The position numbers and the translations under genes were made by a program. Shown piece after piece: positions 14,643-64,000 of a stretch of DNA of 64,000 nt. A model generated the notes under the pieces. It was given only the letters and a program-made list of their open reading frames with translations, was not told where the DNA came from and did no database searches. The stretch is taken from NCBI GenBank assembly GCA_036245805.1, contig BTRK01000005.1:26014469-26078468 (forward strand), written 5' to 3'. The DNA is from Pristionchus mayeri. Taxonomy: Eukaryota; Nematoda; Chromadorea; Rhabditida; Neodiplogasteridae. Each line of letters starts with the position of its first letter. The stretch's first letter is position 1.

Positions 14643-14651
14643 AGCAGGAGG

Positions 14652-17815: not shown

Positions 17816-17971
17816 AACTTCCCTCCTTTCTCTCTGCTATTTACATATGTATGCATCGTTAAAAAATTACATTTACCTATATAAACTGTTGGCAGCATTT
17901 GATCTAGAGCTCCTAAATTAACATTCTTCATGTCTACTTATTTGTTGTGTTGAAAATAGGAAGAAAAAATA
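17816..17971. other. 3' flank of the hydroxylase gene
   Basis: This is probable 3' untranslated and downstream sequence. I see no second gene. Confidence 0.4.
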
Positions 17972-20281: not shown

Positions 20282-21074
20282 GTCCACTACCGTATATCAA
20301 TCGATAATTATCATTGGGTCAACTACCGTATACCAATCGATAATTAGCCATGGGTCACCTCTTATTCCGCGGGTCAGATTTATGATTTTGACCTTTGATC
20401 TTTGAATTACGGTATACCAATCAATAATTAGCATTGGGTCAACTACCGTATACCAATCGATAATTAGCCATGGGTCACCTCTTATTCCGTGGGTCAGATT
20501 TATGATTTTGACCTTTGATATTTGAATTACCGTATGCCAATCAATAATTAGCATTGGGTCAACTACCGTATACCAATCGATAATTAGCCATGGGTCACCT
20601 CTTATTCCGTGGGTCAGATTTATGATTGTGACCTTTGATATTTGAATTACCGTATGCTAATCAATAATTAGCATTGGGTCAACTACCGTATACCAATCGA
20701 TAATTAGCCATGGGTCACCTCTTATTCCGTGGGTCAGATTTATGATTTTGACCTTTGATCTTTGAATTACCGTATGCCAATCAATAATTAGCATTGGGTC
20801 AACTACCGTATACTAATCGATAATTAGCCATGGGTCACATCTTATTCCGTTGGTCAGATTTATGATTTTGACCTTTGATATTTGAATTACCGTATGCCAA
20901 TGAATAATTAGCATTGGGTCAACTACCGTACACCAATCGATAATTAGCCATGGGTCACCTCTTATTCCGTGGGTCAGATTTATGATTTTGACCTTTGATC
21001 TTTGAATTACCGTATACCAATCAATAATTAGCATTGGGTCAACTACCGTATACCAATCGATAATTAGCCATGGG
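20282..21074 (+). repeat. 120-bp tandem repeat, about 6.6 copies
   Basis: The period is exactly 120 bp, with related blocks at 20341, 20461, 20581, 20701, 20821, 20941 and 21061. Each unit contains two similar half-elements, CCAATCGATAATTAGCCATG and CCAATCAATAATTAGCATTG, separated by a TTATTCCGTGGGTCAGA stretch. Copies differ by a few bases. The last copy is cut within GCCATGGGTCA, where the 39-bp satellite begins. Because 120 is a multiple of 3, one frame stays open through it; this is not evidence of coding. Confidence 0.95.
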
Positions 21075-21120
21075 TCAAAGCATCTCGAATGTTCCAGAAA
21101 GTTCGAAAATGTTCCAAAGC

Positions 21121-21143
21121 TTCTAGAATGTTCCAGAAAGTTC
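21121..21143 (+). promoter_or_regulatory. Representative heat-shock element (five pentamers)
   Basis: This is the first full-consensus copy in the array: TTC, GAA, TTC, GAA, TTC with 2-bp spacers, starting with TTCTAGAA. The HSF trimer is known to bind three or more contiguous inverted nGAAn units, so each satellite unit contains a sufficient site. The same configuration recurs about every 39 bp to the end of the window. Confidence 0.8.
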
Positions 21144-24100
21144 GAAAATGTTCCAAAGCTTCTAGAATGTTCCCGAAAGTTCGAAAATGTTCCAAAGCTT
21201 CTAGAATGTTCCAGAAAGTTCGAAAATGTTCCAAAGCTTCTAGAATGTTCCCGAAAGTTCGAAAATGTTCCAAAGCTTCTAGAATGTTCCAGAAAGTTCG
21301 AAAATGTTCCAAAGCTTCTAGAATGTTCCCGAAAGTTCGAAAATGTTCCAAAGCTTCTAGAATGTTCCAGAAAGTTCGAAAATGTTCCAAAGCTTCTAGA
21401 ATGTTCCAGAAATTTCGAAAATGTTCCAAAGCTTCTAGAATGTTCCAGAAAGTTCGAAAAAGTTCCAAAGCTTCTAGAATGTTCCAGAAAGTTCGAAAAT
21501 GTTCCAAAGCTTCTAGAATGTTCCCGAAAGTTCGAAAAAGTTCCAAAGCTTCTAGAATGTTCCAGAAAGTTCGAAAATGTTCCAAAGCTTCTAGAATGTT
21601 CCAGAAAGTTCGAAAATGTTCCAAAGCTTCTAGAATGTTCCAGAAAGTTCGAAAAAGTTCCAAAGCTTCTAGAATGTTCCAGAAAGTTCGAAAATGTTCC
21701 AAAGCTTCTAGAATGTTCCCGAAAGTTCGAAAAAGTTCCAAAGCTTCTAGAATGTTCCAGAAAGTTCGAAAATGTTCCAAAGCTTCTAGAATGTTCCCGA
21801 AAGTTCGAAAATGTTCCAAAGCTTCTAGAATGTTCCAGAAAGTTCGAAAATGTTCCAAAGCTTCTAGAATGTTCCAGAAATTTCGAAAATGTTCCAAAGC
21901 TTCTAGAATGTTCCAGAAAGTTCGAAAATGTTCCAAAGCTTCTAGAATGTTCCCGAAAGTTCGAAAAAGTTCCAAAGCTTCTAGAATGTTCCAGAAAGTT
22001 CGAAAATGTTCCAAAGCTTCTAGAATGTTCCAGAAAGTTCGAAAATGTTCCAAAGCTTCTAGAATGTTCCAGAAAGTTCGAAAATGTTCCAAAGCTTCTA
22101 GAATGTTCCAGAAAGTTCGAAAATGTTCCAAAGCTTCTAGAATGTTCCAGAAAGTTCGAAAATGTTCCAAAGCTTCTAGAATGTTCCCGAAAGTTCGAAA
22201 ATGTTCCAAAGCTTCTAGAATGTTCCAGAAAGTTCGAAAATGTTCCAAAGCTTCTAGAATGTTCCAGAAATTTCGAAAATGTTCCAAAGCTTCTAGAATG
22301 TTCCAGAAATTTCGAAAATGTTCCAAAGCTTCTAGAATGTTCCAGAAAGTTCGAAAAAGTTCCAAAGCTTCTAGAATGTTCCAGAAAGTTCGAAAATGTT
22401 CCAAAGCTTCTAGAATGTTCCCGAAAGTTCGAAAAAGTTCCAAAGCTTCTAGAATGTTCCAGAAAGTTCGAAAATGTTCCAAAGCTTCTAGAATGTTCCA
22501 GAAAGTTCGAAAATGTTCCAAAGCTTCTAGAATGTTCCAGAAAGTTCGAAAATGTTCCAAAGCTTCTAGAATGTTCCAGAAAGTTCGAAAATGTTCCAAA
22601 GCTTCTAGAATGTTCCAGAAAGTTCGAAAATGTTCCAAAGCTTCTAGAATGTTCCAGAAAGTTCGAAAATGTTCCAAAGCTTCTAGAATGTTCCCGAAAG
22701 TTCGAAAATGTTCCAAAGCTTCTAGAATGTTCCAGAAAGTTCGAAAATGTTCCAAAGCTTCTAGAATGTTCCAGAAATTTCGAAAATGTTCCAAAGCTTC
22801 TAGAATGTTCCAGAAAGTTCGAAAATGTTCCAAAGCTTCTAGAATGTTCCAGAAAGTTCGAAAATGTTCCAAAGCTTCTAGAATGTTCCAGAAAGTTCGA
22901 AAATGTTCGAAAACTTCTAGAATGTTCCCGAAAGTTCCAAAAAGTTCCAAAGCTTCTCGAATGTTCCAGAAAGTTCGAAAATGTTCCAAAGCTTCTAGAA
23001 TGTTCCAGAAAGTTCGAAAATGTTCCAAAGCTTCTAGAATGTTCCAGAAAGTTCGAAAATGTTCCAAAGCTTCTAGAATGTTCCAGAAAGTTCGAAAATG
23101 TTCCAAAGCTTCTAGAATGTTCCCGAAAGTTCGAAAAAGTTCCAAAGCTTCTAGAATGTTCCAGAAAGTTCGAAAATGTTCCAAAGCTTCTAGAATGTTC
23201 CAGAAAGTTCGAAAATGTTCCAAAGCTTCTAGAATGTTCCAGAAAGTTCGAAAATGTTCCAAAGCTTCTAGAATGTTCCAGAAAGTTCGAAAATGTTCCA
23301 AAGCTTCTAGAATGTTCCCGAAAGTTCGAAAATGTTCCAAAGCTTCTAGAATGTTCCAGAAAGTTCGAAAATGTTCCAAAGCTTCTAGAATGTTCCAGAA
23401 ATTTCGAAAATGTTCCAAAGCTTCTAGAATGTTCCAGAAAGTTCGAAAAAGTTCCAAAGCTTCTAGAATGTTCCAGAAAGTTCGAAAATGTTCCAAAGCT
23501 TCTAGAATGTTCCCGAAAGTTCGAAAAAGTTCCAAAGCTTCTAGAATGTTCCAGAAAGTTCGAAAATGTTCCAAAGCTTCTAGAATGTTCCCGAAAGTTC
23601 GAAAATGTTCCAAAGCTTCTAGAATGTTCCAGAAAGTTCGAAAATGTTCCAAAGCTTCTAGAATGTTCCAGAAATTTCGAAAATGTTCCAAAGCTTCTAG
23701 AATGTTCCAGAAAGTTCGAAAATGTTCCAAAGCTTCTAGAATGTTCCCGAAAGTTCGAAAAAGTTCCAAAGCTTCTAGAATGTTCCAGAAAGTTCGAAAA
23801 TGTTCCAAAGCTTCTAGAATGTTCCAGAAAGTTCGAAAATGTTCCAAAGCTTCTAGAATGTTCCAGAAAGTTCGAAAATGTTCCAAAGCTTCTAGAATGT
23901 TCCAGAAAGTTCGAAAATGTTCCAAAGCTTCTAGAATGTTCCAGAAAGTTCGAAAATGTTCCAAAGCTTCTAGAATGTTCCCGAAAGTTCGAAAATGTTC
24001 CAAAGCTTCTAGAATGTTCCAGAAAGTTCGAAAATGTTCCAAAGCTTCTAGAATGTTCCAGAAATTTCGAAAATGTTCCAAAGCTTCTAGAATGTTCCAG

Positions 24101-27100
24101 AAATTTCGAAAATGTTCCAAAGCTTCTAGAATGTTCCAGAAAGTTCGAAAAAGTTCCAAAGCTTCTAGAATGTTCCAGAAAGTTCGAAAATGTTCCAAAG
24201 CTTCTAGAATGTTCCCGAAAGTTCGAAAAAGTTCCAAAGCTTCTAGAATGTTCCAGAAAGTTCGAAAATGTTCCAAAGCTTCTAGAATGTTCCAGAAAGT
24301 TCGAAAATGTTCCAAAGCTTCTAGAATGTTCCAGAAAGTTCGAAAATGTTCCAAAGCTTCTAGAATGTTCCAGAAAGTTCGAAAATGTTCCAAAGCTTCT
24401 AGAATGTTCCAGAAAGTTCGAAAATGTTCCAAAGCTTCTAGAATGTTCCAGAAAGTTCGAAAATGTTCCAAAGCTTCTAGAATGTTCCCGAAAGTTCGAA
24501 AATGTTCCAAAGCTTCTAGAATGTTCCAGAAAGTTCGAAAATGTTCCAAAGCTTCTAGAATGTTCCAGAAATTTCGAAAATGTTCCAAAGCTTCTAGAAT
24601 GTTCCAGAAAGTTCGAAAATGTTCCAAAGCTTCTAGAATGTTCCAGAAAGTTCGAAAATGTTCCAAAGCTTCTAGAATGTTCCAGAAAGTTCGAAAATGT
24701 TCGAAAACTTCTAGAATGTTCCCGAAAGTTCCAAAAAGTTCCAAAGCTTCTCGAATGTTCCAGAAAGTTCGAAAATGTTCCAAAGCTTCTAGAATGTTCC
24801 AGAAAGTTCGAAAATGTTCCAAAGCTTCTAGAATGTTCCAGAAAGTTCGAAAATGTTCCAAAGCTTCTAGAATGTTCCAGAAAGTTCGAAAATGTTCCAA
24901 AGCTTCTAGAATGTTCCCGAAAGTTCGAAAAAGTTCCAAAGCTTCTAGAATGTTCCAGAAAGTTCGAAAATGTTCCAAAGCTTCTAGAATGTTCCAGAAA
25001 GTTCGAAAATGTTCCAAAGCTTCTAGAATGTTCCAGAAAGTTCGAAAATGTTCCAAAGCTTCTAGAATGTTCCAGAAAGTTCGAAAATGTTCCAAAGCTT
25101 CTAGAATGTTCCCGAAAGTTCGAAAATGTTCCAAAGCTTCTAGAATGTTCCAGAAAGTTCGAAAATGTTCCAAAGCTTCTAGAATGTTCCCGAAAGTTCG
25201 AAAAAGTTCCAAAGCTTCTCGAATGTTCCAGAAAGTTCGAAAATGTTCCAAAGCTTCTAGAATGTTCCCGAAAGTTCGAAAATGTTCCAAAGCTTCTAGA
25301 ATGTTCCCGAAAGTTCGAAAATGTTCCAAAGCTTCTAGAATGTTCCAGAAAGTTCGAAAATGTTCCAAAGCTTCTAGAATGTTCCAGAAAGTTCGAAAAT
25401 GTTCGAAAACTTCTAGAATGTTCCCGAAAGTTCGAAAAAGTTCCAAAGCTTCTCGAATGTTCCAGAAAGTTCGAAAATGTTCGAAAACTTCTAGAATGTT
25501 CCCGAAAGTTCGAAAAAGTTCCAAAGCTTCTCGAATGTTCCAGAAAGTTCGAAAATGTTCCAAAGCTTCTAGAATGTTCCAGAAAGTTCGAAAATGTTCC
25601 AAAGCTTCTAGAATGTTCCAGAAAGTTCGAAAATGTTCCAAAGCTTCTAGAATGTTCCAGAAAGTTCGAAAATGTTCCAAAGCTTCTAGAATGTTCCCGA
25701 AAGTTCGAAAAAGTTCCAAAGCTTCTAGAATGTTCCAGAAAGTTCGAAAATGTTCCAAAGCTTCTAGAATGTTCCAGAAAGTTCGAAAATGTTCCAAAGC
25801 TTCTAGAATGTTCCCGAAAGTTCGAAAAAGTTCCAAAGCTTCTAGAATGTTCCAGAAAGTTCGAAAATGTTCCAAAGCTTCTAGAATGTTCCAGAAAGTT
25901 CGAAAATGTTCCAAAGCTTCTAGAATGTTCCAGAAAGTTCGAAAATGTTCCAAAGCTTCTAGAATGTTCCAGAAAGTTCGAAAATGTTCCAAAGCTTCTA
26001 GAATGTTCCCGAAAGTTCGAAAATGTTCCAAAGCTTCTAGAATGTTCCAGAAAGTTCGAAAATGTTCCAAAGCTTCTAGAATGTTCCCGAAAGTTCGAAA
26101 AAGTTCCAAAGCTTCTCGAATGTTCCAGAAAGTTCGAAAATGTTCCAAAGCTTCTAGAATGTTCCCGAAAGTTCGAAAATGTTCCAAAGCTTCTAGAATG
26201 TTCCCGAAAGTTCGAAAATGTTCCAAAGCTTCTAGAATGTTCCAGAAAGTTCGAAAATGTTCCAAAGCTTCTAGAATGTTCCAGAAAGTTCGAAAATGTT
26301 CCAAAGCTTCTAGAATGTTCCAGAAATTTCGAAAATGTTCCAAAGCTTCTAGAATGTTCCAGAAAGTTCGAAAATGTTCGAAAACTTCTAGAATGTTCCC
26401 GAAAGTTCGAAAAAGTTCCAAAGCTTCTCGAATGTTCCAGAAAGTTCGAAAATGTTCCAAAGCTTCTAGAATGTTCCAGAAAGTTCGAAAATGTTCCAAA
26501 GCTTCTAGAATGTTCCAGAAAGTTCGAAAATGTTCCAAAGCTTCTAGAATGTTCCAGAAAGTTCGAAAATGTTCCAAAGCTTCTAGAATGTTCCCGAAAG
26601 TTCGAAAATGTTCCAAAGCTTCTAGAATGTTCCAGAAAGTTCGAAAATGTTCCAAAGCTTCTAGAATGTTCCCGAAAGTTCGAAAATGTTCCAAAGCTTC
26701 TAGAATGTTCCCGAAAGTTCGAAAATGTTCCAAAGCTTCTAGAATGTTCCAGAAAGTTCGAAAATGTTCCAAAGCTTCTAGAATGTTCCAGAAAGTTCGA
26801 AAATGTTCCAAAGCTTCTAGAATGTTCCAGAAATTTCGAAAATGTTCCAAAGCTTCTAGAATGTTCCAGAAAGTTCGAAAATGTTCGAAAACTTCTAGAA
26901 TGTTCCCGAAAGTTCGAAAAAGTTCCAAAGCTTCTCGAATGTTCCAGAAAGTTCGAAAATGTTCCAAAGCTTCTAGAATGTTCCAGAAAGTTCGAAAATG
27001 TTCCAAAGCTTCTAGAATGTTCCAGAAAGTTCGAAAATGTTCCAAAGCTTCTAGAATGTTCCAGAAAGTTCGAAAATGTTCCAAAGCTTCTAGAATGTTC

Positions 27101-30100
27101 CCGAAAGTTCGAAAATGTTCCAAAGCTTCTAGAATGTTCCAGAAAGTTCGAAAATGTTCCAAAGCTTCTAGAATGTTCCAGAAAGTTCGAAAATGTTCCA
27201 AAGCTTCTAGAATGTTCCAGAAAGTTCGAAAATGTTCCAAAGCTTCTAGAATGTTCCAGAAAGTTCGAAAATGTTCCAAAGCTTCTAGAATGTTCCCGAA
27301 AGTTCGAAAATGTTCCAAAGCTTCTAGAATGTTCCAGAAAGTTCGAAAATGTTCCAAAGCTTCTAGAATGTTCCCGAAAGTTCGAAAATGTTCCAAAGCT
27401 TCTAGAATGTTCCCGAAAGTTCGAAAATGTTCCAAAGCTTCTAGAATGTTCCAGAAAGTTCGAAAATGTTCCAAAGCTTCTAGAATGTTCCAGAAAGTTC
27501 GAAAATGTTCCAAAGCTTCTAGAATGTTCCAGAAATTTCGAAAATGTTCCAAAGCTTCTAGAATGTTCCAGAAAGTTCGAAAATGTTCGAAAACTTCTAG
27601 AATGTTCCCGAAAGTTCGAAAAAGTTCCAAAGCTTCTCGAATGTTCCAGAAAGTTCGAAAATGTTCCAAAGCTTCTAGAATGTTCCAGAAAGTTCGAAAA
27701 TGTTCCAAAGCTTCTAGAATGTTCCAGAAAGTTCGAAAATGTTCCAAAGCTTCTAGAATGTTCCAGAAAGTTCGAAAATGTTCCAAAGCTTCTAGAATGT
27801 TCCCGAAAGTTCGAAAATGTTCCAAAGCTTCTAGAATGTTCCAGAAAGTTCGAAAATGTTCCAAAGCTTCTAGAATGTTCCCGAAAGTTCGAAAAAGTTC
27901 CAAAGCTTCTCGAATGTTCCAGAAAGTTCGAAAATGTTCCAAAGCTTCTAGAATGTTCCCGAAAGTTCGAAAATGTTCCAAAGCTTCTAGAATGTTCCCG
28001 AAAGTTCGAAAATGTTCCAAAGCTTCTAGAATGTTCCAGAAAGTTCGAAAATGTTCCAAAGCTTCTAGAATGTTCCAGAAAGTTCGAAAATGTTCCAAAG
28101 CTTCTAGAAAGTTCCAGAAATTTCGAAAATGTTCCAAAGCTTCTAGAATGTTCCCGAAAGTTCGAAAATGTTCCAAAGCTTCTAGAATGTTCCAGAAAGT
28201 TCGAAAATGTTCCAAAGCTTCTAGAATGTTCCCGAAAGTTCGAAAAAGTTCCAAAGCTTCTCGAATGTTCCAGAAAGTTCGAAAATGTTCCAAAGCTTTT
28301 AGAATGTTCCCGAAAGTTCGAAAATGTTCCAAAGCTTCTAGAATGTTCCCGAAAGTTCGAAAATGTTCCAAAGCTTCTATAATGTTCCAGAAAGTTCGAA
28401 AATGTTCCAAAGCTTCTAGAATGTTCCAGAAAGTTCGAAAATGTTCGAAAACTTCTAGAATGTTCCCGAAAGTTCGAAAAAGTTCCAAAGCTTCTCGAAT
28501 GTTCCAGAAAGTTCGAAAATGTTCGAAAACTTCTAGAATGTTCCCGAAAGTTCGAAAAAGTTCCAAAGCTTCTCGAATGTTCCAGAAAGTTCGAAAATGT
28601 TCCAAAGCTTCTAGAATGTTCCAGAAAGTTCGAAAATGTTCCAAAGCTTCTAGAATGTTCCAGAAAGTTCGAAAATGTTCCAAAGCTTCTAGAATGTTCC
28701 AGAAAGTTCGAAAATGTTCCAAAGCTTCTAGAATGTTCCCGAAAGTTCGAAAAAGTTCCAAAGCTTCTAGAATGTTCCAGAAAGTTCGAAAATGTTCCAA
28801 AGCTTCTAGAATGTTCCAGAAAGTTCGAAAATGTTCCAAAGCTTCTAGAATGTTCCCGAAAGTTCGAAAAAGTTCCAAAGCTTCTAGAATGTTCCAGAAA
28901 GTTCGACAATGTTCCAAAGCTTCTAGAATGTTCCAGAAAGTTCGAAAATGTTCCAAAGCTTCTAGAATGTTCCAGAAAGTTCGAAAATGTTCCAAAGCTT
29001 CTAGAATGTTCCAGAAAATTCGAAAATGTTCCAAAGCTTCTAGAATGTTCCCGAAAGTTCGAAAATGTTCCAAAGCTTCTAGAATGTTCCAGAAAGTTCG
29101 AAAATGTTCCAAAGCTTCTAGAATGTTCCCGAAAGTTCGAAAAAGTTCCAAAGCTTCTCGAATGTTCCAGAAAGTTCGAAAATGTTCCAAAGCTTCTAGA
29201 ATGTTCCCGAAAGTTCGAAAATGTTCCAAAGCTTCTAGAATGTTCCCGAAAGTTCGAAAATGTTCCAAAGCTTCTAGAATGTTCCAGAAAGTTCGAAAAT
29301 GTTCCAAAGCTTCTAGAATGTTCCAGAAAGTTCGAAAATGTTCCAAAGCTTCTAGAATGTTCCAGAAATTTCGAAAATGTTCCAAAGCTTCTAGAATGTT
29401 CCAGAAAGTTCGAAAATGTTCGAAAACTTCTAGAATGTTCCCGAAAGTTCGAAAAAGTTCCAAAGCTTCTCGAATGTTCCAGAAAGTTCGAAAATGTTCC
29501 AAAGCTTCTAGAATGTTCCAGAAAGTTCGAAAATGTTCCAAAGCTTCTAGAATGTTCCAGAAAGTTCGAAAATGTTCCAAAGCTTCTAGAATGTTCCAGA
29601 AAGTTCGAAAATGTTCCAAAGCTTCTAGAATGTTCCCGAAAGTTCGAAAATGTTCCAAAGCTTCTAGAATGTTCCAGAAAGTTCGAAAATGTTCCAAAGC
29701 TTCTAGAATGTTCCCGAAAGTTCGAAAAAGTTCCAAAGCTTCTCGAATGTTCCAGAAAGTGCGAAAATGTTCCAAAGCTTCTAGAATGTTCCCGAAAGTT
29801 CGAAAATGTTCCAAAGCTTCTAGAATGTTCCCGAAAGTTCGAAAATGTTCCAAAGCTTCTAGAATGTTCCAGAAAGTTCGAAAATGTTCCAAAGCTTCTA
29901 GAATGTTCCAGAAAGTTCGAAAATGTTCCAAAGCTTCTAGAAAGTTCCAGAAATTTCGAAAATGTTCCAAAGCTTCTAGAATGTTCCAGAAAGTTCGAAA
30001 AAGTTCCAAAGCTTCTAGAATGTTCCAGAAAGTTCGAAAATGTTCCAAAGCTTCTAGAATGTTCCAGAAAGTTCGAAAATGTTCCAAAGCTTCTAGAATG

Positions 30101-33100
30101 TTCCCGAAAGTTCGAAAAAGTTCCAAAGCTTCTAGAATGTTCCCGAAAGTTCGAAAAAGTTCCAAAGCTTCTAGAATGTTCCAGAAAGTTCGAAAATGTT
30201 CCAAAGCTTCTAGAATGTTCCAGAAAGTTCGAAAATGTTCCAAAGCTTCTAGAATGTTCCCGAAAGTTCGAAAATGTTCCAAAGCTTCTAGAATGTTCCA
30301 GAAAGTTCGAAAATGTTAAAAAGCTTCTAGAATGTTCCCGAAAGTTCGAAAAAGTTCCAAAGCTTCTCGAATGTTCCAGAAAGTTCGAAAATGTTCCAAA
30401 GCTTCTAGAATGTTCCCGAAAGTTCGAAAATGTTCCAAAGCTTCTAGAATGTTCCAGAAAGTTCGAAAATGTTCCAAAGCTTCTAGAATGTTCCAGAAAG
30501 TTCGAAAATGTTCCAAAGCTTCTAGAATGTTCCAGAAATTTCGAAAATGTTCCAAAGCTTCTAGAATGTTCCAGAAAGTTCGAAAATGTTCGAAAACTTC
30601 TAGAATGTTCCCGAAAGTTCGAAAAAGTTCCAAAGCTTCTCGAATGTTCCAGAAAGTTCGAAAATGTTCCAAAGCTTCTAGAATGTTCCAGAAAGTTCGA
30701 AAATGTTCCAAAGCTTCTAGAATGTTCCAGAAAGTTCGAAAATGTTCCAAAGCTTCTAGAATGTTCCAGAAAGTTCGAAAATGTTCCAAAGCTTCTAGAA
30801 TGTTCCCGAAAGTTCGAAAATGTTCCAAAGCTTCTAGAATGTTCCAGAAAGTTCGAAAATGTTCCAAAGCTTCTAGAATGTTCCCGAAAGTTCGAAAAAG
30901 TTCCAAAGCTTCTCGAATGTTCCAGAAAGTTCGAAAATGTTCCAAAGCTTCTAGAATGTTCCCGAAAGTTCGAAAATGTTCCAAAGCTTCTAGAATGTTC
31001 CCGAAAGTTCGAAAATGTTCCAAAGCTTCTAGAATGTTCCAGAAAGTTCGAAAATGTTCCAAAGCTTCTAGAATGTTCCAGAAAGTTCGAAAATGTTCCA
31101 AAGCTTCTAGAATGTTCCAGAAAGTTCGAAAATGTTCCAAAGCTTCTAGAATGTTCCCGAAAGTTCGAAAAAGTTCCAAAGCTTCTAGAATGTTCCAGAA
31201 AGTTCGAAAATGTTCCAAAGCTTCTAGAATGTTCCAGAAAGTTCGAAAATGTTCCAAAGCTTCTAGAATGTTCCCGAAAGTTCGAAAAAGTTCCAAAGCT
31301 TCTAGAATGTTCCAGAAAGTTCGAAAATGTTCCAAAGCTTCTAGAATGTTCCAGAAAGTTCGAAAATGTTCCAAAGCTTCTAGAATGTTCGAGAAAGTTC
31401 GAAAATGTTAAAAAGCTTCTAGAATGTTCCCGAAAGTTCGAAAAAGTTCCAAAGCTTCTCGAATGTTCCAGAAAGTTCGAAAATGTTCCAAAGCTTCTAG
31501 AATGTTCCCGAAAGTTCGAAAATGTTCCAAAGCTTCTAGAATGTTCCCGAAAGTTCGAAAATGTTCCAAAGCTTCTAGAATGTTCCAGAAAGTTCGAAAA
31601 TGTTCCAAAGCTTCTAGAATGTTCCAGAAAGTTCGAAAATGTTCCAAAGCTTCTAGAATGTTCCAGAAATTTCGAAAATGTTCCAAAGCTTCTAGAATGT
31701 TCCAGAAAGTTCGAAAATGTTCGAAAACTTCTAGAATGTTCCCGAAAGTTCGAAAAAGTTCCAAAGCTTCTCGAATGTTCCAGAAAGTTCGAAAAAGTTC
31801 CAAAGCTTCTAGAATGTTCCAGAAAGTTCGAAAATGTTCCAAAGCTTCTAGAATGTTCCCGAAAGCTCGAAAAAGTTCCAAAGCTTCTCGAATGTTCCAG
31901 AAAGTTCGAAAATGTTCCAAAGCTTCTAGAATGTTCCCGAAAGTTCGAAAATGTTCCAAAGCTTCTAGAATGTTCCCGAAAGTTCGAAAATGTTCCAAAG
32001 CTTCTAGAATGTTCCAGAAAGTTCGAAAATGTTCCAAAGCTTCTAGAATGTTCCAGAAAGTTCGAAAATGTTCCAAAGCTTCTAGAATGTTCCAGAAAGT
32101 TCGAAAATGTTCCAAAGCTTCTAGAATGTTCCAGAAAGTTCGAAAATGTTCCAAAGCTTCTAGAATGTTCCCGAAAGTTCGAAAAAGTTCCAAAGCTTCT
32201 AGAATGTTCCAGAAAGTTCGAAAATGTTCCAAAGCTTCTAGAATGTTCCAGAAAGTTCGAAAATGTTCCAAAGCTTCTAGAATGTTCCCGAAAGTTCGAA
32301 AAAGTTCCAAAGCTTCTAGAATGTTCCAGAAAGTTCGAAAATGTTCCAAAGCTTCTAGAATGTTCCAGAAAGTTCGAAAATGTTCCAAAGCTTCTAGAAT
32401 GTTCCAGAAAGTTCGAAAATGTTCCAAAGCTTCTAGAATGTTCCAGAAAGTTCGAAAATGTTCCAAAGCTTCTAGAATGTTCCCGAAAGTTCGAAAAAGT
32501 TCCAAAGCTTCTCGAATGTTCCAGAAAGTTCGAAAATGTTCCAAAGCTTCTAGAATGTTCCCGAAAGTTCGAAAATGTTCCAAAGCTTCTAGAATGTTCC
32601 CGAAAGTTCGAAAAAGTTCCAAAGCTTCTCGAATGTTCCAGAAAGTTCGAAAATGTTCCAAAGCTTCTAGAATGTTCCAGAAAGTTCGAAAATGTTCCAA
32701 AGCTTCTAGAATGTTCCAGAAAGTTCGAAAATGTTCCAAAGCTTCTAGAATGTTCCAGAAAGTTCGAAAATGTTCCAAAGCTTCTAGAATGTTCCCGAAA
32801 GTTCGAAAATGTTCCAAAGCTTCTAGAATGTTCCAGAAAGTTCGAAAATGTTCCAAAGCTTCTAGAATGTTCCCGAAAGTTCGAAAACGTTCCAAAGCTT
32901 CTCGAATGTTCCAGAAAGTTCGAAAATGTTCCAAAGCTTCTAGAATGTTCCCGAAAGTTCGAAAATGTTCCAAAGCTTCTAGAATGTTCCAGAAAGTTCG
33001 AAAATGTTCCAAAGCTTCTAGAATGTTCCCGAAAGTTCGAAAATGTTCCAAAGCTTCTAGAATGTTCCAGAAAGTTCGAAAATGTTCCAAAGCTTCTAGA

Positions 33101-42100: not shown

Positions 42101-42109
42101 GCTTCTAGA

Positions 42110-54100: not shown

Positions 54101-54650
54101 TTCCAAAGCTTCTAGAATGTTCCAGAAAGTTCGAAAATGTTCCAAAGCTTCTAGAATGTTCCCGAAAGTTCGAAAATGTTCCAAAGCTTCTAGAATGTTC
54201 CCGAAAGTTCGAAAATGTTCCAAAGCTTCTAGAATGTTCCAGAAAGTTCGAAAATGTTCCAAAGCTTCTAGAATGTTCCCGAAAGTTCGAAAAAGTTCCA
54301 AAGCTTCTCGAATGTTCCAGAAAGTTCGAAAATATTCCAAAGCTTCTAGAATGTTCCCGAAAGTTCGAAAATGTTCCAAAGCTTCTAGAATGTTCCCGAA
54401 AGTAATCGAAAATGTTCCAAAGCTTCTAGAATGTTCCAGAAAGTTCGAAAATGTTCCAAAGCTTCTAGAATGTTCCAGAAAGTTCGAAAATGTTCCAAAG
54501 CTTCTAGAATGTTCCAGAAAGTTCGAAAATGTTCCAAAGCTTCTAGAATGTTCCCGAAAGTTCGAAAAAGTTCCAAAGCTTCTAGAATGTTCCAGAAAGT
54601 TCGAAAATGTTCCAAAGCTTCTAGAATGTTCCAGAAAGTTCGAAATGTTC
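42110..54650 (+). repeat. Indel-bearing part of the satellite
   Basis: About thirteen small length changes occur only here: 1-nt losses near 42115, 44087, 44258, 44357, 44465, 46697, 47781, 50430 and 54642; 1-nt gains near 46085, 46620 and 47556; and a 2-nt gain near 54403. Most losses shorten a run of A or C. None was seen in 21075-42100 or 54660-64000, where the 39-bp register is unbroken. Confidence 0.75.
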
Positions 54651-56999
54651 CAAAGCTTCTAGAATGTTCCAGAAAGTTCGAAAATGTTCCAAAGCTTCTA
54701 GAATGTTCCAGAAAGTTCGAAAATGTTCCAAAGCTTCTAGAATGTTCCAGAAATTTCGAAAATGTTCCAAAGCTTCTAGAATGTTCCAGAAAGTTCGAAA
54801 ATGTTCCAAAGCTTCTAGAATGTTCCAGAAAGTTCGAAAATGTTCCAAAGCTTCTAGAATGTTCCAGAAAGTTCGAAAATGTTCGAAAACTTCTAGAATG
54901 TTCCCGAAAGTTCGAAAAAGTTCCAAAGCTTCTCGAATGTTCCAGAAAGTTCGAAAATGTTCCAAAGCTTCTAGAATGTTCCAGAAAGTTCGAAATTGTT
55001 CCAAAGCTTCTAGAATGTTCCAGAAAGTTCGAAAATGTTCCAAAGCTTCTAGAATGTTCCAGAAAGTTCGAAAATGTTCCAAAGCTTCTAGAATGTTCCA
55101 GAAAGTTCGAAAATGTTCCAAAGCTTCTAGAATGTTCCCGAAAGTTCGAAAATGTTCCAAAGCTTCTAGAATGTTCCAGAAAGTTCGAAAATGTTCCAAA
55201 GCTTCTAGAATGTTCCAGAAATTTCGAAAATGTTCCAAAGCTTCTAGAATGTTCCAGAAAGTTCGAAAATGTTCCAAAGCTTCTAGAATGTTCCAGAAAG
55301 TTCGAAAATGTTCCAAAGCTTCTAGAATGTTCCAGAAAGTTCGAAAATGTTCGAAAACTTCTAGAATGTTCCCGAAAGTTCGAAAAAGTTCCAAAGCTTC
55401 TCGAATGTTCCAGAAAGTTCGAAAATGTTCCAAAGCTTCTAGAATGTTCCAGAAAGTTCGAAAATGTTCCAAAGCTTCTAGAATGTTCCAGAAAGTTCGA
55501 AAATGTTCCAAAGCTTCTAGAATGTTCCAGAAAGTTCGAAAATGTTCCAAAGCTTCTAGAATGTTCCCGAAAGTTCGAAAAAGTTCCAAAGCTTCTAGAA
55601 TGTTCCAGAAAGTTCGAAAATGTTCCAAAGCTTCTAGAATGTTCCAGAAAGTTCGAAAATGTTCCAAAGCTTCTAGAATGTTCCCGAAAGTTCGAAAATG
55701 TTCCAAAGCTTCTAGAATGTTCCAGAAAGTTCGAAAATGTTCCAAAGCTTCTAGAATGTTCCCGAAAGTTCGAAAAAGTTCCAAAGCTTCTCGAATGTTC
55801 CAGAAAGTTCGAAAATGTTCCAAAGCTTCTAGAATGTTCCCGAAAGTTCGAAAATGTTCCAAAGCTTCTAGAATGTTCCCGAAAGTTCGAAAATGTTCCA
55901 AAGCTTCTAGAATGTTCCAGAAAGTTCGAAAATGTTCCAAAGCTTCTAGAATGTTCCAGAAAGTTCGAAAATGTTCCAAAGCTTCTAGAATGTTCCAGAA
56001 ATTTCGAAAATGTTCCAAAGCTTCTAGAATGTTCCAGAAAGTTCGAAAATGTTCGAAAACTTCTAGAATGTTCCAGAAAGTTCGAAAATGTTCCAAAGCT
56101 TCTAGAATGTTCCAGAAAGTTCGAAAATGTTCCAAAGCTTCTAGAATGTTCCAGAAAGTTCGAAAATGTTCCAAAGCTTCTAGAATGTTCCCGAAAGTTC
56201 GAAAAAGTTCCAAAGCTTCTCGAATGTTCCAGAAAGTTCGAAAATATTCCAAAGCTTCTAGAATGTTCCCGAAAGTTCGAAAATGTTCCAAAGCTTCTAG
56301 AATGTTCCCGAAAGTTCGAAAATGTTCCAAAGCTTCTAGAATGTTCAAGAAAGTTCGAAAATGTTCCAAAGCTTCTAGAATGTTCCAGAAAGTTCGAAAA
56401 TGTTCCAAAGCTTCTAGAATGTTCCAGAAAGTTCGAAAATGTTCCAAAGCTTCTAGAATGTTCCAGAAAGTTCGAAAATGTTCCAAAGCTTCTAGAATGT
56501 TCCAGAAAGTTCGAAAATGTTCCAAAGCTTCTAGAATGTTCCAGAAAGTTCGAAAATGTTCCAAAGCTTCTAGAATGTTCCCGAAAGTTCGAAAAAGTTC
56601 CAAAGCTTCTCGAATGTTCCAGAAAGTTCGAAAATGTTCCAAAGCTTCTAGAATGTTCCCGAAAGTTCGAAAATGTTCCAAAGCTTCTAGAATGTTCCAG
56701 AAAGTTCGAAAATGTTCCAAAGCTTCTAGAATGTTCCAGAAAGTTCGAAAATGTTCCAAAGCTTCTAGAATGTTCCCGAAAGTTCGAAAAAGTTCCAAAG
56801 CTTCTAGAATGTTCCAGAAAGTTCGAAAATGTTCCAAAGCTTCTAGAATGTTTCAGAAAGTTCGAAAATGTTCCAAAGCTTCTAGAATGTTCCAGAAAGT
56901 TCGAAAATGTTCCAAAGCTTCTAGAATGTTCCAGAAAGTTCGAAAATGTTCCAAAGCTTCTAGAATGTTCCAGAAAGTTCGAAAATGTTCCAAAGCTTC

Positions 57000-59900
57000 T
57001 AGAATGTTCCCGAAAGTTCGAAAATGTTCCAAAGCTTCTAGAATGTTCCAGAAAGTTCGAAAATGTTCCAAAGCTTCTAGAATGTTCCCGAAAGTTCGAA
57101 AATGTTCCAAAGCTTCTAGAATGTTCCAGAAATTTCGAAAATGTTCCAAAGCTTCTAGAATGTTCCAGAAAGTTCGAAAATGTTCCAAAGCTTCTAGAAT
57201 GTTCCAGAAAGTTCGAAAATGTTCGAAAACTTCTAGAATGTTCCCGAAAGTTCGAAAAAGTTCCAAAGCTTCTCGAATGTTCCAGAAAGTTCGAAAATGT
57301 TCCAAAGCTTCTAGAATGTTCCAGAAAGTTCGAAAATGTTCCAAAGCTTCTAGAATGTTCCAGAAAGTTCGAAAATGTTCCAAAGCTTCTAGAATGTTCC
57401 AGAAAGTTCGAAAATGTTCCAAAGCTTCTAGAATGTTCCAGAAAGTTCGAAAATGTTCCAAAGCTTCTAGAATGTTCCAGAAAGTTCGAAAATGTTCGAA
57501 AACTTCTAGAATGTTCCAGAAAGTTCGAAAATGTTCCAAAGCTTCTAGAATGTTCCAGAAAGTTCGAAAATGTTCCAAAGCTTCTAGAATGTTCCAGAAA
57601 GTTCGAAAATGTTCCAAAGCTTCTAGAATGTTCCCGAAAGTTCGAAAAAGTTCCAAAGCTTCTAGAATGTTCCAGAAAGTTCGAAAATGTTCGAAAACTT
57701 CTAGAATGTTCCAGAAAGTTCGAAAACGTTCGAAAACTTCTAGAATGTTCCAGAAAGTTCGAAAATGTTCCAAAGCTTCTAGAATGTTCCAGAAAGTTCG
57801 AAAAAGTTCCAAAGCTTCTAGAATGTTCCAGAAAGTTCGAAAATGTTCCAAAGCTTCTAGAATGTTCCAGAAAGTTCGAAAATGTTCCAAAGCTTCTAGA
57901 ATGTTCCAGAAAGTTCGAAAATGTTCCAAAGCTTCTAGAATGTTCCAGAAAGTTCGAAAATGTTCCAAAGCTTCTAGAATGTTCCAGAAAGTTCGAAAAT
58001 GTTCCAAAGCTTCTAGAATGTTCCAGAAAGTTCGAAAATGTTCGAAAACTTCTAGAATGTTCCCGAAAGTTCGAAAAAGTTCCAAAGCTTCTAGAATGTT
58101 CCAGAAAGTTCGAAAATGTTCCAAAGCTTCTAGAATGTTCCAGAAAGTTCGAAAATGTTCGAAAACTTCTAGAATGTTCCAGAAAGTTCGAAAATGTTCG
58201 AAAACTTCTAGAATGTTCCAGAAAGTTCGAAAATGTTCCAAAGCTTCTAGAATGTTCCAGAAAGTTCGAAAATGTTCCAAAGCTTCTAGAATGTTCCAGA
58301 AAGTTCGAAAATGTTCCAAAGCTTCTAGAATGTTCCCGAAAGTTCGAAAAAGTTCCAAAGCTTCTAGAATGTTCCAGAAAGTTCGAAAATGTTCGAAAAC
58401 TTCTAGAATGTTCCAGAAAGTTCGAAAATGTTCGAAAACTTCTAGAATGTTCCAGAAAGTTCGAAAATGTTCCAAAGCTTCTAGAATGTTCCAGAAAGTT
58501 CGAAAAAGTTCCAAAGCTTCTAGAATGTTCCAGAAAGTTCGAAAATGTTCCAAAGCTTCTAGAATGTTCCAGAAAGTTCGAAAATGTTCCAAAGCTTCTA
58601 GAATGTTCCAGAAAGTTCGAAAATGTTCCAAAGCTTCTAGAATGTTCCAGAAAGTTCGAAAATGTTCCAAAGCTTCTAGAATGTTCCAGAAAGTTCGAAA
58701 ATGTTCCAAAGCTTCTAGAATGTTCCAGAAAGTTCGAAAATGTTCGAAAACTTCTAGAATGTTCCCGAAAGTTCGAAAAAGTTCCAAAGCTTCTAGAATG
58801 TTCCAGAAAGTTCGAAAATGTTCCAAAGCTTCTAGAATGTTCCAGAAAGTTCGAAAATGTTCGAAAACTTCTAGAATGTTCCAGAAAGTTCGAAAATGTT
58901 CCAAAGCTTCTAGAATGTTCCAGAAAGTGCGAAAATGTTCCAAAGCTTCTAGAATGTTCCAGAAAGTTCGAAAATGTTCCAAAGCTTCTAGAATGTTCCA
59001 GAAAGTTCGAAAATGTTCCAAAGCTTCTAGAATGTTCCAGAAAGTTCGAAAATGTTCCAAAGCTTCTAGAATGTTCCAGAAAGTTCGAAAATGTTCGAAA
59101 ACTTCTAGAATGTTCCAGAAAGTTCGAAAATGTTCCAAAGCTTCTAGAATGTTCCAGAAAGTGCGAAAATGTTCCAAAGCTTCTAGAATGTTCCAGAAAG
59201 TTCGAAAATGTTCCAAAGCTTCTATAATGTTCCAGAAAGTTCGAAAATGTTCCAAAGCTTCTAGAATGTTCCAGAAAGTTCGAAAATGTTCCAAAGCTTC
59301 TAGAATGTTCCCGAAAGTTCGAAAATGTTCCAAAGCTTCTAGAATGTTCCAGAAAGTTCGAAAATGTTCCAAAGCTTCTAAAATGTTCCAGAAAGTTCGA
59401 AAATGTTCCAAAGCTTCTAGAATGTTCCAGAAAGTTCGAAAATGTTCCAAAGCTTCTAGAATGTTCCCGAAAGTTCGAAAATGTTCCAAAGCTTCTAGAA
59501 TGTTCCAGAAAGTTCGAAAATGTTCCAAAGCTTCTAGAATGTTCCCGAAAGTTCGGAAATGTTCCAAAGCTTCTAGAATGTTCCAGAAAGTTCGAAAATG
59601 TTCCAAAGCTTCTAGAATGTTCCCGAAAGTTCGAAAATGTTCCAAAGCTTCTAGAATGTTCCCGAAAGTTCGAAAAAGTTCCAAAGCTTCTCGAATGTTC
59701 CAGAAAGTTCGAAAATGTTCCAAAGCTTCTAGAATGTTCCAGAAAGTTCGAAAATGTTCCAAAGCTTCTAGAATGTTCCAGAAAGTTCGAAAATGTTCCA
59801 AAGCTTCTAGAATGTTCCAGAAAGTTCGAAAATGTTCCAAAGCTTCTAGAATGTTCCAGAAAGTTCGAAAATGTTCCAAAGCTTCTAGAATGTTCCAGAA

Positions 59901-62900
59901 AGTTCGAAAATGTTCGAAAACTTCTAGAATGTTCCAGAAAGTTCGAAAATGTTCCAAAGCTTCTAGAATGTTCCAGAAAGTTCGAAAATGTTCGAAAACT
60001 TCTAGAATGTTCCAGAAAGTTCGAAAATGTTCCAAAGCTTCTAGAATGTTCCAGAAAGTGCGAAAATGTTCCAAAGCTTCTAGAATGTTCCCGAAAGTTC
60101 GAAAAAGTTCCAAAGCTTCTAGAATGTTCCAGAAAGTTCGAAAATGTTCCAAAGCTTCTAGAATGTTCCAGAAAGTTCGAAAATGTTCGAAAACTTCTAG
60201 AATGTTCCAGAAAGTTCGAAAATGTTCCAAAGCTTCTAGAATGTTCCAGAAAGTTCGAAAATGTTCCAAAGCTTCTAGAATGTTCCGGAAAGTTCGAAAA
60301 TGTTCCAAAGCTTCTAGAATGTTCCAGAAAGTTCGAAAATGTTCCAAAGCTTCTAGAATGTTCCAGAAAGTTCGAAAATGTTCCAAAGCTTCTAGAATGT
60401 TCCCGAAAGTTCGAAAATGTTCCAAAGCTTCTAGAATGTTCCAGAAAGTTCGAAAAAGTTCCAAAGCTTCTAGAATGTTCCCGAAAGTTCGAAAAAGTTC
60501 CAAAGCTTCTAGAATGTTCCAGAAAGTTCGAAAATGTTCGAAAACTTCTAGAATGTTCCAGAAAGTTCGAAAATGTTCCAAAGCTTCTAGAATGTTCCAG
60601 AAAGTTCGAAAATGTTCCAAAGCTTCTAGAATGTTCCAGAAAGTTCGAAAATGTTCCAAAGCTTCTAGAATGTTCCAGAAAGTTCGAAAATGTTCGAAAA
60701 CTTCTAGAATGTTCCCGAAAGTTCGAAAAAGTTCCAAAGCTTCTAGAATGTTCCAGAAAGTTCGAAAATGTTCCAAAGCTTCTAGAATGTTCCAGAAAGT
60801 TCGAAAATGTTCCAAAGCTTCTAGAATGTTCCAGAAAGTTCGAAAATGTTCCAAAGCTTCTAGAATGTTCCAGAAAGTTCGAAAATGTTCCAAAGCTTCT
60901 AGAATGTTCCAGAAAGTTCGAAAATGTTCGAAAACTTCTAGAATGTTCCCGAAAGTTCGAAAAAGTTCCAAAGCTTCTAGAATGTTCCAGAAAGTTCGAA
61001 AATGTTCCAAAGCTTCTAGAATGTTCCAGAAAGTTCGAAAATGTTCGAAAACTTCTAGAATGTTCCAGAAAGTTCGAAAATGTTCCAAAGCTTCTAGAAT
61101 GTTCCAGAAAGTTCGAAAATGTTCCAAAGCTTCTAGAATGTTCCAGAAAGTTCGAAAATGTTCCAAAGCTTCTAGAATGTTCCAGAAAGTTCGAAAATGT
61201 TCCAAAGCTTCTAGAATGTTCCAGAAAGTTCGAAAATGTTCCAAAGCTTCTAGAATGTTCCCGAAAGTTCGAAAATGTTCCAAAGCTTCTAGAATGTTCC
61301 AGAAAGTTCGAAAAAGTTCCAAAGCTTCTAGAATGTTCCCGAAAGTTCGAAAAAGTTCCAAAGCTTCTAGAATGTTCCAGAAAGTGCGAAAATGTTCCAA
61401 AGCTTCTAGAATGTTCCCGAAAGTTCGAAAAAGTTCCAAAGCTTCTAGAATGTTCCAGAAAGTTCGAAAATGTTCCAAAGCTTCTAGAATGTTCCAGAAA
61501 GTTCGAAAATGTTCGAAAACTTCTAGAATGTTCCAGAAAGTTCGAAAATGTTCCAAAGCTTCTAGAATGTTCCAGAAAGTTCGAAAATGTTCCAAAGCTT
61601 CTAGAATGTTCCGGAAAGTTCGAAAATGTTCCAAAGCTTCTAGAATGTTCCAGAAAGTTCGAAAATGTTCCAAAGCTTCTAGAATGTTCCAGAAAGTTCG
61701 AAAATGTTCCAAAGCTTCTAGAATGTTCCAGAAAGTTCGAAAATGTTCGAAAACTTCTAGAATGTTCCAGAAAGTTCGAAAATGTTCCAAAGCTTCTAGA
61801 ATGTTCCAGAAAGTTCGAAAATGTTCGAAAACTTCTAGAATGTTCCAGAAAGTTCGAAAATGTTCCAAAGCTTCTAGAATGTTCCAGAAAGTGCGAAAAT
61901 GTTCCAAAGCTTCTAGAATGTTCCCGAAAGTTCGAAAAAGTTCCAAAGCTTCTAGAATGTTCCAGAAAGTTCGAAAATGTTCCAAAGCTTCTAGAATGTT
62001 CCAGAAAGTTCGAAAATGTTCGAAAACTTCTAGAATGTTCCAGAAAGTTCGAAAATGTTCCAAAGCTTCTAGAATGTTCCAGAAAGTTCGAAAATGTTCC
62101 AAAGCTTCTAGAATGTTCCGGAAAGTTCGAAAATGTTCCAAAGCTTCTAGAATGTTCCAGAAAGTTCGAAAATGTTCCAAAGCTTCTAGAATGTTCCAGA
62201 AAGTTCGAAAATGTTCGAAAACTTCTAGAATGTTCCAGAAAGTTCGAAAATGTTCCAAAGCTTCTAGAATGTTCCAGAAAGTTCGAAAATGTTCCAAAGC
62301 TTCTAGAATGTTCCAGAAAGTTCGAAAATGTTCCAAAGCTTCTAGAATGTTCCAGAAAGTTCGAAAATGTTCCAAAGCTTCTAGAATGTTCCAGAAAGTT
62401 CGAAAATGTTCCAAAGCTTCTAGAATGTTCCCGAAAGTTCGAAAATGTTCCAAAGCTTCTAGAATGTTCCAGAAAGTTCGAAAAAGTTCCAAAGCTTCTA
62501 GAATGTTCCCGAAAGTTCGAAAAAGTTCCAAAGCTTCTAGAATGTTCCAGAAAGTGCGAAAATGTTCCAAAGCTTCTAGAATGTTCCCGAAAGTTCGAAA
62601 AAGTTCCAAAGCTTCTAGAATGTTCCAGAAAGTTCGAAAATGTTCCAAAGCTTCTAGAATGTTCCAGAAAGTTCGAAAATGTTCGAAAACTTCTAGAATG
62701 TTCCAGAAAGTTCGAAAATGTTCCAAAGCTTCTAGAATGTTCCAGAAAGTTCGAAAATGTTCCAAAGCTTCTAGAATGTTCCGGAAAGTTCGAAAATGTT
62801 CCAAAGCTTCTAGAATGTTCCAGAAAGTTCGAAAATGTTCCAAAGCTTCTAGAATGTTCCAGAAAGTTCGAAAATGTTCCAAAGCTTCTAGAATGTTCCA

Positions 62901-64000
62901 GAAAGTTCGAAAATGTTCGAAAACTTCTAGAATGTTCCAGAAAGTTCGAAAATGTTCCAAAGCTTCTAGAATGTTCCAGAAAGTTCGAAAATGTTCGAAA
63001 ACTTCTAGAATGTTCCAGAAAGTTCGAAAATGTTCCAAAGCTTCTAGAATGTTCCAGAAAGTGCGAAAATGTTCCAAAGCTTCTAGAATGTTCCCGAAAG
63101 TTCGAAAAAGTTCCAAAGCTTCTAGAATGTTCCAGAAAGTTCGAAAATGTTCCAAAGCTTCTAGAATGTTCCAGAAAGTTCGAAAATGTTCGAAAACTTC
63201 TAGAATGTTCCAGAAAGTTCGAAAATGTTCCAAAGCTTCTAGAATGTTCCAGAAAGTTCGAAAATGTTCCAAAGCTTCTAGAATGTTCCGGAAAGTTCGA
63301 AAATGTTCCAAAGCTTCTAGAATGTTCCAGAAAGTTCGAAAATGTTCCAAAGCTTCTAGAATGTTCCAGAAAGTTCGAAAATGTTCGAAAACTTCTAGAA
63401 TGTTCCAGAAAGTTCGAAAATGTTCCAAAGCTTCTAGAATGTTCCAGAAAGTTCGAAAATGTTCCAAAGCTTCTAGAATGTTCCGGAAAGTTCGAAAATG
63501 TTCCAAAGCTTCTAGAATGTTCCAGAAAGTTCGAAAATGTTCCAAAGCTTCTAGAATGTTCCAGAAAGTTCGAAAATGTTCGAAAACTTCTAGAATGTTC
63601 CAGAAAGTTCGAAAATGTTCCAAAGCTTCTAGAATGTTCCAGAAAGTTCGAAAATGTTCCAAAGCTTCTAGAATGTTCCAGAAAGTTCGAAAATGTTCCA
63701 AAGCTTCTAGAATGTTCCAGAAAGTTCGAAAATGTTCCAAAGCTTCTAGAATGTTCCAGAAAGTTCGAAAATGTTCCAAAGCTTCTAGAATGTTCCCGAA
63801 AGTTCGAAAATGTTCCAAAGCTTCTAGAATGTTCCAGAAAGTTCGAAAAAGTTCCAAAGCTTCTAGAATGTTCCCGAAAGTTCGAAAAAGTTCCAAAGCT
63901 TCTAGAATGTTCCAGAAAGTGCGAAAATGTTCCAAAGCTTCTAGAATGTTCCCGAAAGTTCGAAAAAGTTCCAAAGCTTCTAGAATGTTCCAGAAAGTTC
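57000..64000 (+). repeat. Distal satellite subdomain with a 1,170-bp higher-order repeat
   Basis: Unit composition shifts here. The CTCGAA variant, common elsewhere, nearly disappears, while TTCGAAAAC units, a TTCCGGAA variant and an AAAGTGCGAAAAT variant (not seen before about 29757) accumulate. Rare variants recur 1,170 bp (30 units) apart: GTGCG at 61384 and 62554, and at 61891 and 63061; CCGG at 61611 and 62781. This marks a recent tandem duplication of a 30-unit block. Confidence 0.8.

Follow-up and report, generated by a model that had tools for sequence, protein, structure and literature searches.

A giant heat-shock-element array in the nematode Pristionchus mayeri as the likely overgrown promoter module of a Helitron

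The genome of the nematode Pristionchus mayeri contains a tandem repeat built from heat-shock elements (HSEs), which raises the question of whether such a block is a satellite in its own right or part of a larger element. The array occupies positions 21076..64000 (+ strand) of the window, by which we mean the whole 64,000-nucleotide stretch of contig BTRK01000005.1 that was analyzed. Tandem Repeats Finder assigns to it a period of 39 bp, 1100.7 copies and 96% matches, and segmentation yields 1,100 units, spaced exactly 39 bp apart in 1,086 of 1,099 cases and identical to the consensus in 585; a sequence-only reading, which had proposed about 1,100 units from 21,075 on, correctly placed the start of the array. 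If a run is taken as a series of GAA and TTC cores that alternate every 5 bp, and an HSE as three or more adjoining pentamers of the alternating forms nGAAn and nTTCn, the array contains 1,077 runs of five or more (1,076 with five pentamers exactly, one with six), and an in-phase extra TTC follows one degenerate pentamer 1,067 times, in agreement with the five pentamers plus a sixth TTC per unit described in that reading. Its figure of more than 5,000 contiguous half-sites is accurate as a number, since runs of at least three comprise 5,467 half-sites, at a density of 25.6 runs per kb, but contiguity holds within runs only, a short gap in each unit parting neighbouring runs. The array breaks off precisely at the window end, where an assembly gap of 5,000 N begins, so that its length of 43 kb is a lower limit, as had been anticipated. 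The six frequent variant columns all fall outside the cores. A simple higher-order repeat was rejected, there being no dominant lag in the unit-type autocorrelation (best lag 111, 0.371 versus 0.319 by chance); local blocks recur in the unit-type string. Long open frames that run through the array result from 39 being 3 x 13 and were not read as genes.

Chance or low complexity as the source of the HSE pattern is ruled out by shuffled sequences and by the flanks. None of 300,000 shuffled units (200,000 mononucleotide and 100,000 dinucleotide shuffles) reaches five pentamers, and four are reached by one mononucleotide and 20 dinucleotide shuffles, which places the HSEs far beyond random expectation. 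The 20,190 bp to the left of the array contain no HSE run of three or more, and the 195,000 bp to its right contain five, each of three only. Equal pentamer density in unrelated satellites would have spoken against the sequence-only reading, but in the flanks this was not seen: none of 13 other tandem arrays (period 8 or more, length 60 bp or more) and no part of the neighbouring 120-bp satellite holds a run of three or more. Rfam and tRNA scans of window positions 1-21100 gave no match. The genome as a whole has 13,068 five-pentamer sites; among the first 100 listed, 96 lie in 39-bp arrays, two at the Rep-promoter sequences described below and two (one place) elsewhere, a sorting that reflects the analyst's reading, in which 10 of 17 arrays were read as sequence and the others judged by repeat spacing.

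What precedes the array indicates the kind of element to which it belongs. Canonical Helitrons have a 5' TC inserted after A and a 3' hairpin with CTRR before T, and autonomous ones encode Rep plus a Pif1-type helicase. A Helitron 5' end, A|TCCATACCTATATATAAAGCGCAGTGT..., lies at 20189..20287 (+), the left junction at 20189 reading AAA|TCCATACC, with the TC after A of the canonical form. It is followed by a 120-bp tandem repeat module of 6.6 copies at 20288..21075 (+; 20288-21077 in Tandem Repeats Finder) and then by the 39-bp array. The 5' pattern has 286 genome matches with at most one mismatch and its reversed control none, and A followed by TC is found at the 5' end of all 12 loci fetched with the pattern. 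Past the gap, the next 195 kb contain no match to exact 3'-end patterns, and the right end of the window copy lies outside the assembled sequence. Judged by this arrangement, the array is not the free-standing satellite it had been taken for but a repeat module internal to a family of Helitrons; HSE-bearing Helitrons of Caenorhabditis, also named as a parallel in the sequence-only reading, proved to be the right lead.

The same arrangement recurs in dispersed relatives. The window and nine of ten dispersed loci have the 120-bp repeats ahead of the 39-bp array; L003 is the one without them. The left end is recognizable in the window, in L001 (altered), L004, L029 and L034, while L008 begins inside it and in L030-L033 it was not found. 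Six of the seven right ends seen (L003, L004, L008, L031, L033 and L047) have a GC-rich hairpin ending CTGG|T, and that of L034 is not CTGG, so that the canonical 3' structure is represented in relatives only. The hairpin overlaps the CTGG rather than sitting about 10 bp before it. Three other long arrays are followed by a Helitron right end on the same strand, at 1.1 kb past the array at C1:37356525-37365763(-), 4.8 kb past the last unit match at C5:13324081 and 28 kb past the last listed junction at C5:41354810.

A complete copy (L047) reveals where the HSEs lie with respect to the transposition gene. This element, at C1:4561214-4567740, is 6,527 bp long, has the flanks A|TC and CTGG|T, and encodes both Rep and a Pif1-type helicase (Helitron_like_N, 1.4e-9; PIF1, 4.5e-23; Pif1_2B, 9.7e-19); Pfam gave no match on the first Rep exons, the domains lying further 3'. 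Among 120 listed of 553 Rep relatives the top match is at 68%, the nearest with a name are Ostertagia (52%) and Haemonchus (49%), and Caenorhabditis is absent from the names shown, many of these relatives carrying no name. Five-pentamer HSEs occur at offsets 530, 569, 647 and 686 and a three-pentamer HSE at 766, the four intact 39-bp HSEs lying about 440-620 bp upstream of the first ATG. A lone five-pentamer HSE at offset 1052 adjoins a TATA-like box, with GATATAAGG at 1091 and the ATG at 1148 (the TATA-like box and first exon were read by eye). The 29-bp sequence of this lone HSE, allowing up to 3 mismatches, is found at 35 places in the genome, compared with none for a reversed control, and the four cores that fall within this pattern are kept at 33 of them. 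An exact-match right end lies downstream on the same strand within 15 kb at 25 of these places, in 16 cases at 5,424-5,455 bp, and at the other 10 there is none within that distance. Since a complete relative carries the same HSEs in front of its transposition gene, it appears that the host's heat-stress signal has been spread and amplified by a jumping gene.

These data bear on the possibility that the array is a neutral satellite overgrowth, its HSE-like pentamers arising fortuitously from a short palindromic decamer repeat that closed chromatin would keep from binding HSF in vivo. Each unit approximates four (n)GAANNTTC(n) decamers, 39 bp being about four decamers minus one base, and for L029 Tandem Repeats Finder also gives a 10-bp period, so that the entire pattern could go back to a single decamer. 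Compatible with neutrality, too, is a constraint on core versus spacer positions that is suggestive but not significant. In 13 dispersed arrays, excluding L034, which holds a different repeat, 47 of 1,455 HSE-core cells and 103 of 1,696 cells elsewhere differ from the consensus, which speaks for the promoter reading, but the core counts are biased because nine of the arrays were found via an exact 18-mer inside the unit (the other four via the 5' end); scored as locus-level events, 39 differences fall on the 18 core positions and 72 on the 21 others, which is not significant (permutation p 0.079). We nevertheless regard neutral overgrowth as improbable, given the non-tandem promoter HSE with its conserved cores and, in 16 places, constant distance from the right end, the retention of a four-pentamer HSE in the second 39-bp repeat of L034, whose sequence is different, and the gain of HSF-1 and Pol II at C. 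elegans Helitron HSEs on heat shock (PMC6927752).

Whether the HSEs originated with the Helitron is a separate issue. Only five of the 12 copies fetched by their 5' end have a 39-bp array within 1.5 kb of it, four having only the 120-bp repeats and three neither; with seven copies lacking a nearby array, the module is not universal. Helitrons often capture sequence, and a pre-existing HSE satellite could have been acquired in this manner instead of arising as the promoter module. There is little to recommend such a capture, however, as 14 of 20 promoter-HSE places on C1-C4 have an exact junction between the 120-bp and 39-bp repeats 210-542 bp upstream, and a non-exhaustive look recognized no array outside a Helitron.

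The most likely account of the window block, then, is that the promoter module of a Helitron, a rolling-circle transposon, has overgrown. Ahead of its Rep/helicase gene the complete copy has a few 39-bp HSE units in tandem and, after them, the lone HSE beside the TATA-like box; host HSF would most likely bind this module and switch on transposition under heat or proteotoxic stress. The module travels in shortened Helitron copies and, being a tandem repeat, may grow through unequal exchange or replication slippage; in the window it reaches 43 kb or more. Such promoter anatomy agrees with the idea, proposed earlier, that Helitrons have co-opted the heat-shock response of their host so as to mobilize under stress.

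As for the 43-kb block, it is probably not an organelle of the host but a by-product that retains the capacity to bind HSF. It resembles human satellite III in being a large satellite with many HSF half-sites. Satellite III, however, has its pentamers head to tail, is not a transposon module, and is documented to be transcribed on heat shock and to form nuclear stress bodies, whereas the P. mayeri array, known from sequence alone, is a Helitron module with alternating pentamers. The sequence-only reading had suggested a stress-body scaffold, an HSF-1 sink or a source of heat-induced satellite RNA, all of them functions at the level of the host. Adoption by the host as a comparable stress-body scaffold or sink, which would gather HSF-1 on heat shock, be transcribed and buffer free factor, could draw on the half-sites concentrated in this one block, on the abundance of five-pentamer sites genome-wide and on the nuclear HSF-1 granules of C. 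elegans, whose binding sites are unknown (PMC6453478). Yet the length of the tandem part differs widely between copies (769-6,218 bp from the 5' end to the promoter HSE in 21 copies), array placement follows Helitron insertions, and hsf-1(sy441) leaves heat-induced dsRNA foci of C. elegans unchanged (PMC6453478), albeit in another species, for another structure and with a partial mutant; such an adoption therefore seems very doubtful. As a natural candidate for an HSF sink, the array has a known minimum size. We also consider it unlikely that the Helitron holds the strong-HSE supply of P. mayeri, with a few giant arrays serving as HSF-1 reservoirs that form HSF-1/RNA foci on heat shock and set the factor available for chaperone genes; if true, transposon copy number would tune the heat-shock response.

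Tandem HSEs in Helitrons are already known from Caenorhabditis, where HelitronY4_CE, Y1_CE and Helitron1_CE bear them (Garrigues et al. 2019, PMC6927752; Schreiner et al. 2019, PMC6765114). Helitrons account for 61.4% of the HSEs that the authors' scan detected in C. elegans, eight HelitronY4_CE copies having more than 100 HSEs, and the possibility was raised that the association is confined to Caenorhabditis (PMC6927752). HSE-loaded Helitrons are now found outside that genus, in Pristionchus, for which our literature search returned no such report. Helitron-borne tandem HSE clusters are common to both; the P. mayeri family differs in belonging to another genus (Diplogasteroidea), in its 39-bp unit and in a single array of more than 1,000 five-pentamer sites, and is described here from genomic DNA only. 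The Helitron satellite Cele_Fam_7_40 is built of rough multiples of a decamer, AGAANNTTCT (Subirana et al. 2015, PMC4595182), and complete C. elegans Helitrons are flanked by satellites (PMC9918286). The P. mayeri array is like these in having a roughly 40-bp unit made up of the GAANNTTC palindromic decamer and residing in Helitrons, a likeness of unit length, decamer and setting; the words 'heat shock' are absent from the main text of both papers. Non-autonomous Helentrons of the Pacific oyster similarly carry satellite-like arrays, rolling-circle elements there dispersing tandem repeats, for which the start of the abstract names no HSE content (PMC7492417). As to the factor itself, a genome search identified an exon at C5:22637761-22637880 that matches part of the HSF DNA-binding domain (36.8 bits, positions 19-58 of 100).

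The 39-bp array at positions 21076-64000 of the window comprises 1100.7 copies with 96% matches, and 585 of its 1,100 segmented units are exactly CAAAGCTTCTAGAATGTTCCAGAAAGTTCGAAAATGTTC. Read as pentamers of the heat shock element (HSE; alternating nGAAn and nTTCn), the unit is cTTCt aGAAt gTTCc aGAAa gTTCg, followed by a degenerate aAAAt and by gTTCc. The sequence-only reading of about 1,100 tandem units, each with five alternating pentamers and a further TTC, is thereby borne out: there are 1,077 runs of at least five alternating cores, namely 1,076 of five and one of six. Its estimate of more than 5,000 half-sites also stands, with 5,467 in runs of three or more, but they are contiguous only inside a run, a short gap in each unit setting neighbouring runs apart. 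In the comparison with shuffled 39-mers that had been proposed, none attained a five-core run (0 of 200,000 and 0 of 100,000), and in 215 kb of flanking sequence the background is five HSE runs, all limited to three cores. None of the array's six frequent variant columns falls on an HSE core (chance 0.017, or 0.035 with two linked columns taken as one). The array ends at the window edge because the assembly stops there, the next 5,000 bases being N. Open frames of 2,698-3,076 codons cross it on both strands (21089-30319, plus; 20813-30282, minus) because 39 is divisible by three, and gene finders could predict genes there.

The array lies within a Helitron. An exact 18-mer of the unit, TTCTAGAATGTTCCAGAA, has 11,618 genome matches (reversed control, 0), and in nine of the ten dispersed loci that were read, all except L003, the 39-bp array is preceded by 120-bp repeats, as it is in the window. 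The window-type left end is recognisable in L001 (altered), L004, L029 and L034, and L008 starts within it; it was not seen in the sequences of L030-L033, copies that seem to be shortened. In several loci the array is followed by a GA-rich tract. Six of the ten (L003, L004, L008, L031, L033, L034) have a GC-rich hairpin, as does L047, which covers the L029 copy's far end. Canonical Helitron termini read A/TC...CTRR/T, the slash marking the element border. The left end consists of A/TC, two variable bases and TACCTATATATAAAGCGCAGTGT (TG replacing TA in one copy), with A and then TC in all 12 loci fetched by the 5' pattern and in the window at 20189; the right end is hairpin-CTGG/T in six of the seven ends seen. 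Judged by their sequence against this definition, the two ends are Helitron termini. The exact-match lists place a same-strand right end within 15 kb of 26 of 79 left ends, compared with one on the wrong strand and one upstream. Genome-wide pattern matches number 286 for left ends and 387 for right ends, which are not element counts, the latter including the hairpin's other arm. The right end of the window copy falls outside the assembled sequence. L036, L038 and L046 share the Helitron 5' end, but the 1.5 kb next to it is free of both 120-bp and HSE repeats; these copies are possibly a sister subfamily without HSEs.

A complete copy of 6,527 bp (contig C1, 4561214-4567740) has open frames matching Helitron_like_N (1.4e-9), PIF1 (4.5e-23) and Pif1_2B (9.7e-19). 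The top database relative of its Rep stands at 68%, the best named ones among the matches listed being from nematodes (Ostertagia, 52%; Haemonchus, 49%). From the 5' end, 120-bp repeats extend to offset ~525; the 39-bp array then supplies five-pentamer HSEs at 530, 569, 647 and 686. Further on come an HSE of three pentamers at 766, a lone one of five at 1052-1074, a TATA-like box GATATAAGG at 1091 and the first-exon ATG at 1148; exon, box and start were assigned by us by eye rather than taken from annotation. In this copy, the HSEs lie upstream of Rep and the helicase. Allowing up to three mismatches, a 29-bp pattern taken from the lone HSE has 35 genome matches (reversed control, 0), 33 of which keep its four cores; the fifth core, outside the pattern, was seen at two places. 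An exact-match right end lies within 15 kb downstream at 25 of the 35 places and at none of the other ten, the distance being 5,424-5,455 bp in 16 and 2,784-11,524 bp in nine. The lone HSE lies 769-6,218 bp from the 5' end in the 21 measurable copies, so the coding side is constant in the 16 and the tandem side variable. The list of exact-match junctions is complete for C1-C4, and there 14 of 20 places have an array junction 210-542 bp upstream of the lone HSE.

We suggest that host HSF would bind the Helitron HSEs and drive Rep under stress, that the tandem array may grow by unequal exchange or slippage, and that the giant array would be a by-product. The genome has a partial HSF DNA-binding-domain match at C5:22637761-22637880 (36.8 bits). 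Core cells vary less than others (47/1,455 vs 103/1,696; p 0.079 at locus-level events), which is weakly suggestive of HSF binding, and the all-non-core variant columns of the window hint at the same. In C. elegans, HSF-1 and Pol II are reported to increase at Helitron HSEs upon heat shock (PMC6927752), and Helitron1_CE RNA to increase HSF-1-dependently (PMC6765114), which by analogy supports HSF-driven Rep in P. mayeri. Against this mechanism, of the 12 copies retrieved through their 5' end, seven have no 39-bp array within 1.5 kb of it; three of the seven also lack the 120-bp repeats over that distance, and two have an array junction ~3 kb onward.

Helitron-borne tandem HSEs are already known from Caenorhabditis, where eight HelitronY4_CE copies are described as carrying more than 100 HSEs; the other metazoan genomes from UCSC that were scanned reportedly lack such enrichment, and the authors suggest restriction to Caenorhabditis (PMC6927752). 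The parallel drawn by the sequence-only reading holds for P. mayeri, classified in Diplogasteroidea, Rhabditina (NCBI), where the window has the Helitron 5' end and modules and the complete copy has HSEs upstream of Rep. A Caenorhabditis Helitron satellite family of 40 bp is reportedly built of AGAANNTTCT decamers (PMC4595182). The P. mayeri unit amounts to roughly four such decamers less one base; in L029, Tandem Repeats Finder also gives a 10-bp period. In P. pacificus, Helitrons are described as a small fraction, some overlapping expressed single-exon genes (PMC9297572). A search mostly of titles and abstract openings, with most subscription journals outside its coverage, found no report of HSE-Helitron arrays in Pristionchus. 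In our judgement, genus, unit, promoter anatomy and satellite-scale growth set the P. mayeri case apart from the known Caenorhabditis ones.

Across the genome, the five-pentamer site TTCNNGAANNTTCNNGAANNTTC has 13,068 matches (reversed control, 0). Among the first 100 listed (C1:1.27-13.57 Mb), 96 were assigned to 17 39-bp arrays, ten read as sequence and the others judged from repeat spacing; two more were placed with the lone HSEs of Rep promoters (C1:4566666 and 12558167), and the last two, a single palindromic place (C1:5940684), with neither. Two other arrays share a variant of the window array: one, of at least 9 kb, lies at C1:37356525-37365763 (minus strand) and is followed 1.1 kb later by a Helitron right end, and one begins at C2:16167762. 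Of the five exact matches to a rarer variant, the window array holds three; the others lie at C5:13322758 and 13324081, between a 120-bp/39-bp junction (13317867) and a right end (13328883). A composite array of more than 50 kb (C5:41304554-41354810), in which that junction recurs at least 30 times, is a satellite of satellites; on the same strand, the list gives the next right end 28 kb further, at 41382908. Because of these distances, the apparent link between long array and Helitron right end is firm for the C1 array and looser for the composite one. Inside the same kind of Helitron, L034 (2636-3979; C1:11.226 Mb) holds another 39-bp repeat, distinct in sequence, in which a four-pentamer HSE is kept; it has 29 exact-pattern matches in five places.

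The window (G000:C5:26014469-26078468; assembly of 291 Mb in 73 contigs) also contains, at ~14600-17900 on the plus strand, a fatty-acid 2-hydroxylase gene with a cytochrome b5 domain (exons joined by eye), whose predicted product is 92% identical to a P. mayeri protein, with a second paralogue at 59%. A LINE-like reverse transcriptase fragment lies at 12191-13036 on the minus strand (RVT_1, 1.5e-36), accompanied by a further open frame at 11598-12185, and two adjoining tandem repeats of 154 and 146 bp at 5738-6146 and 6192-6691.
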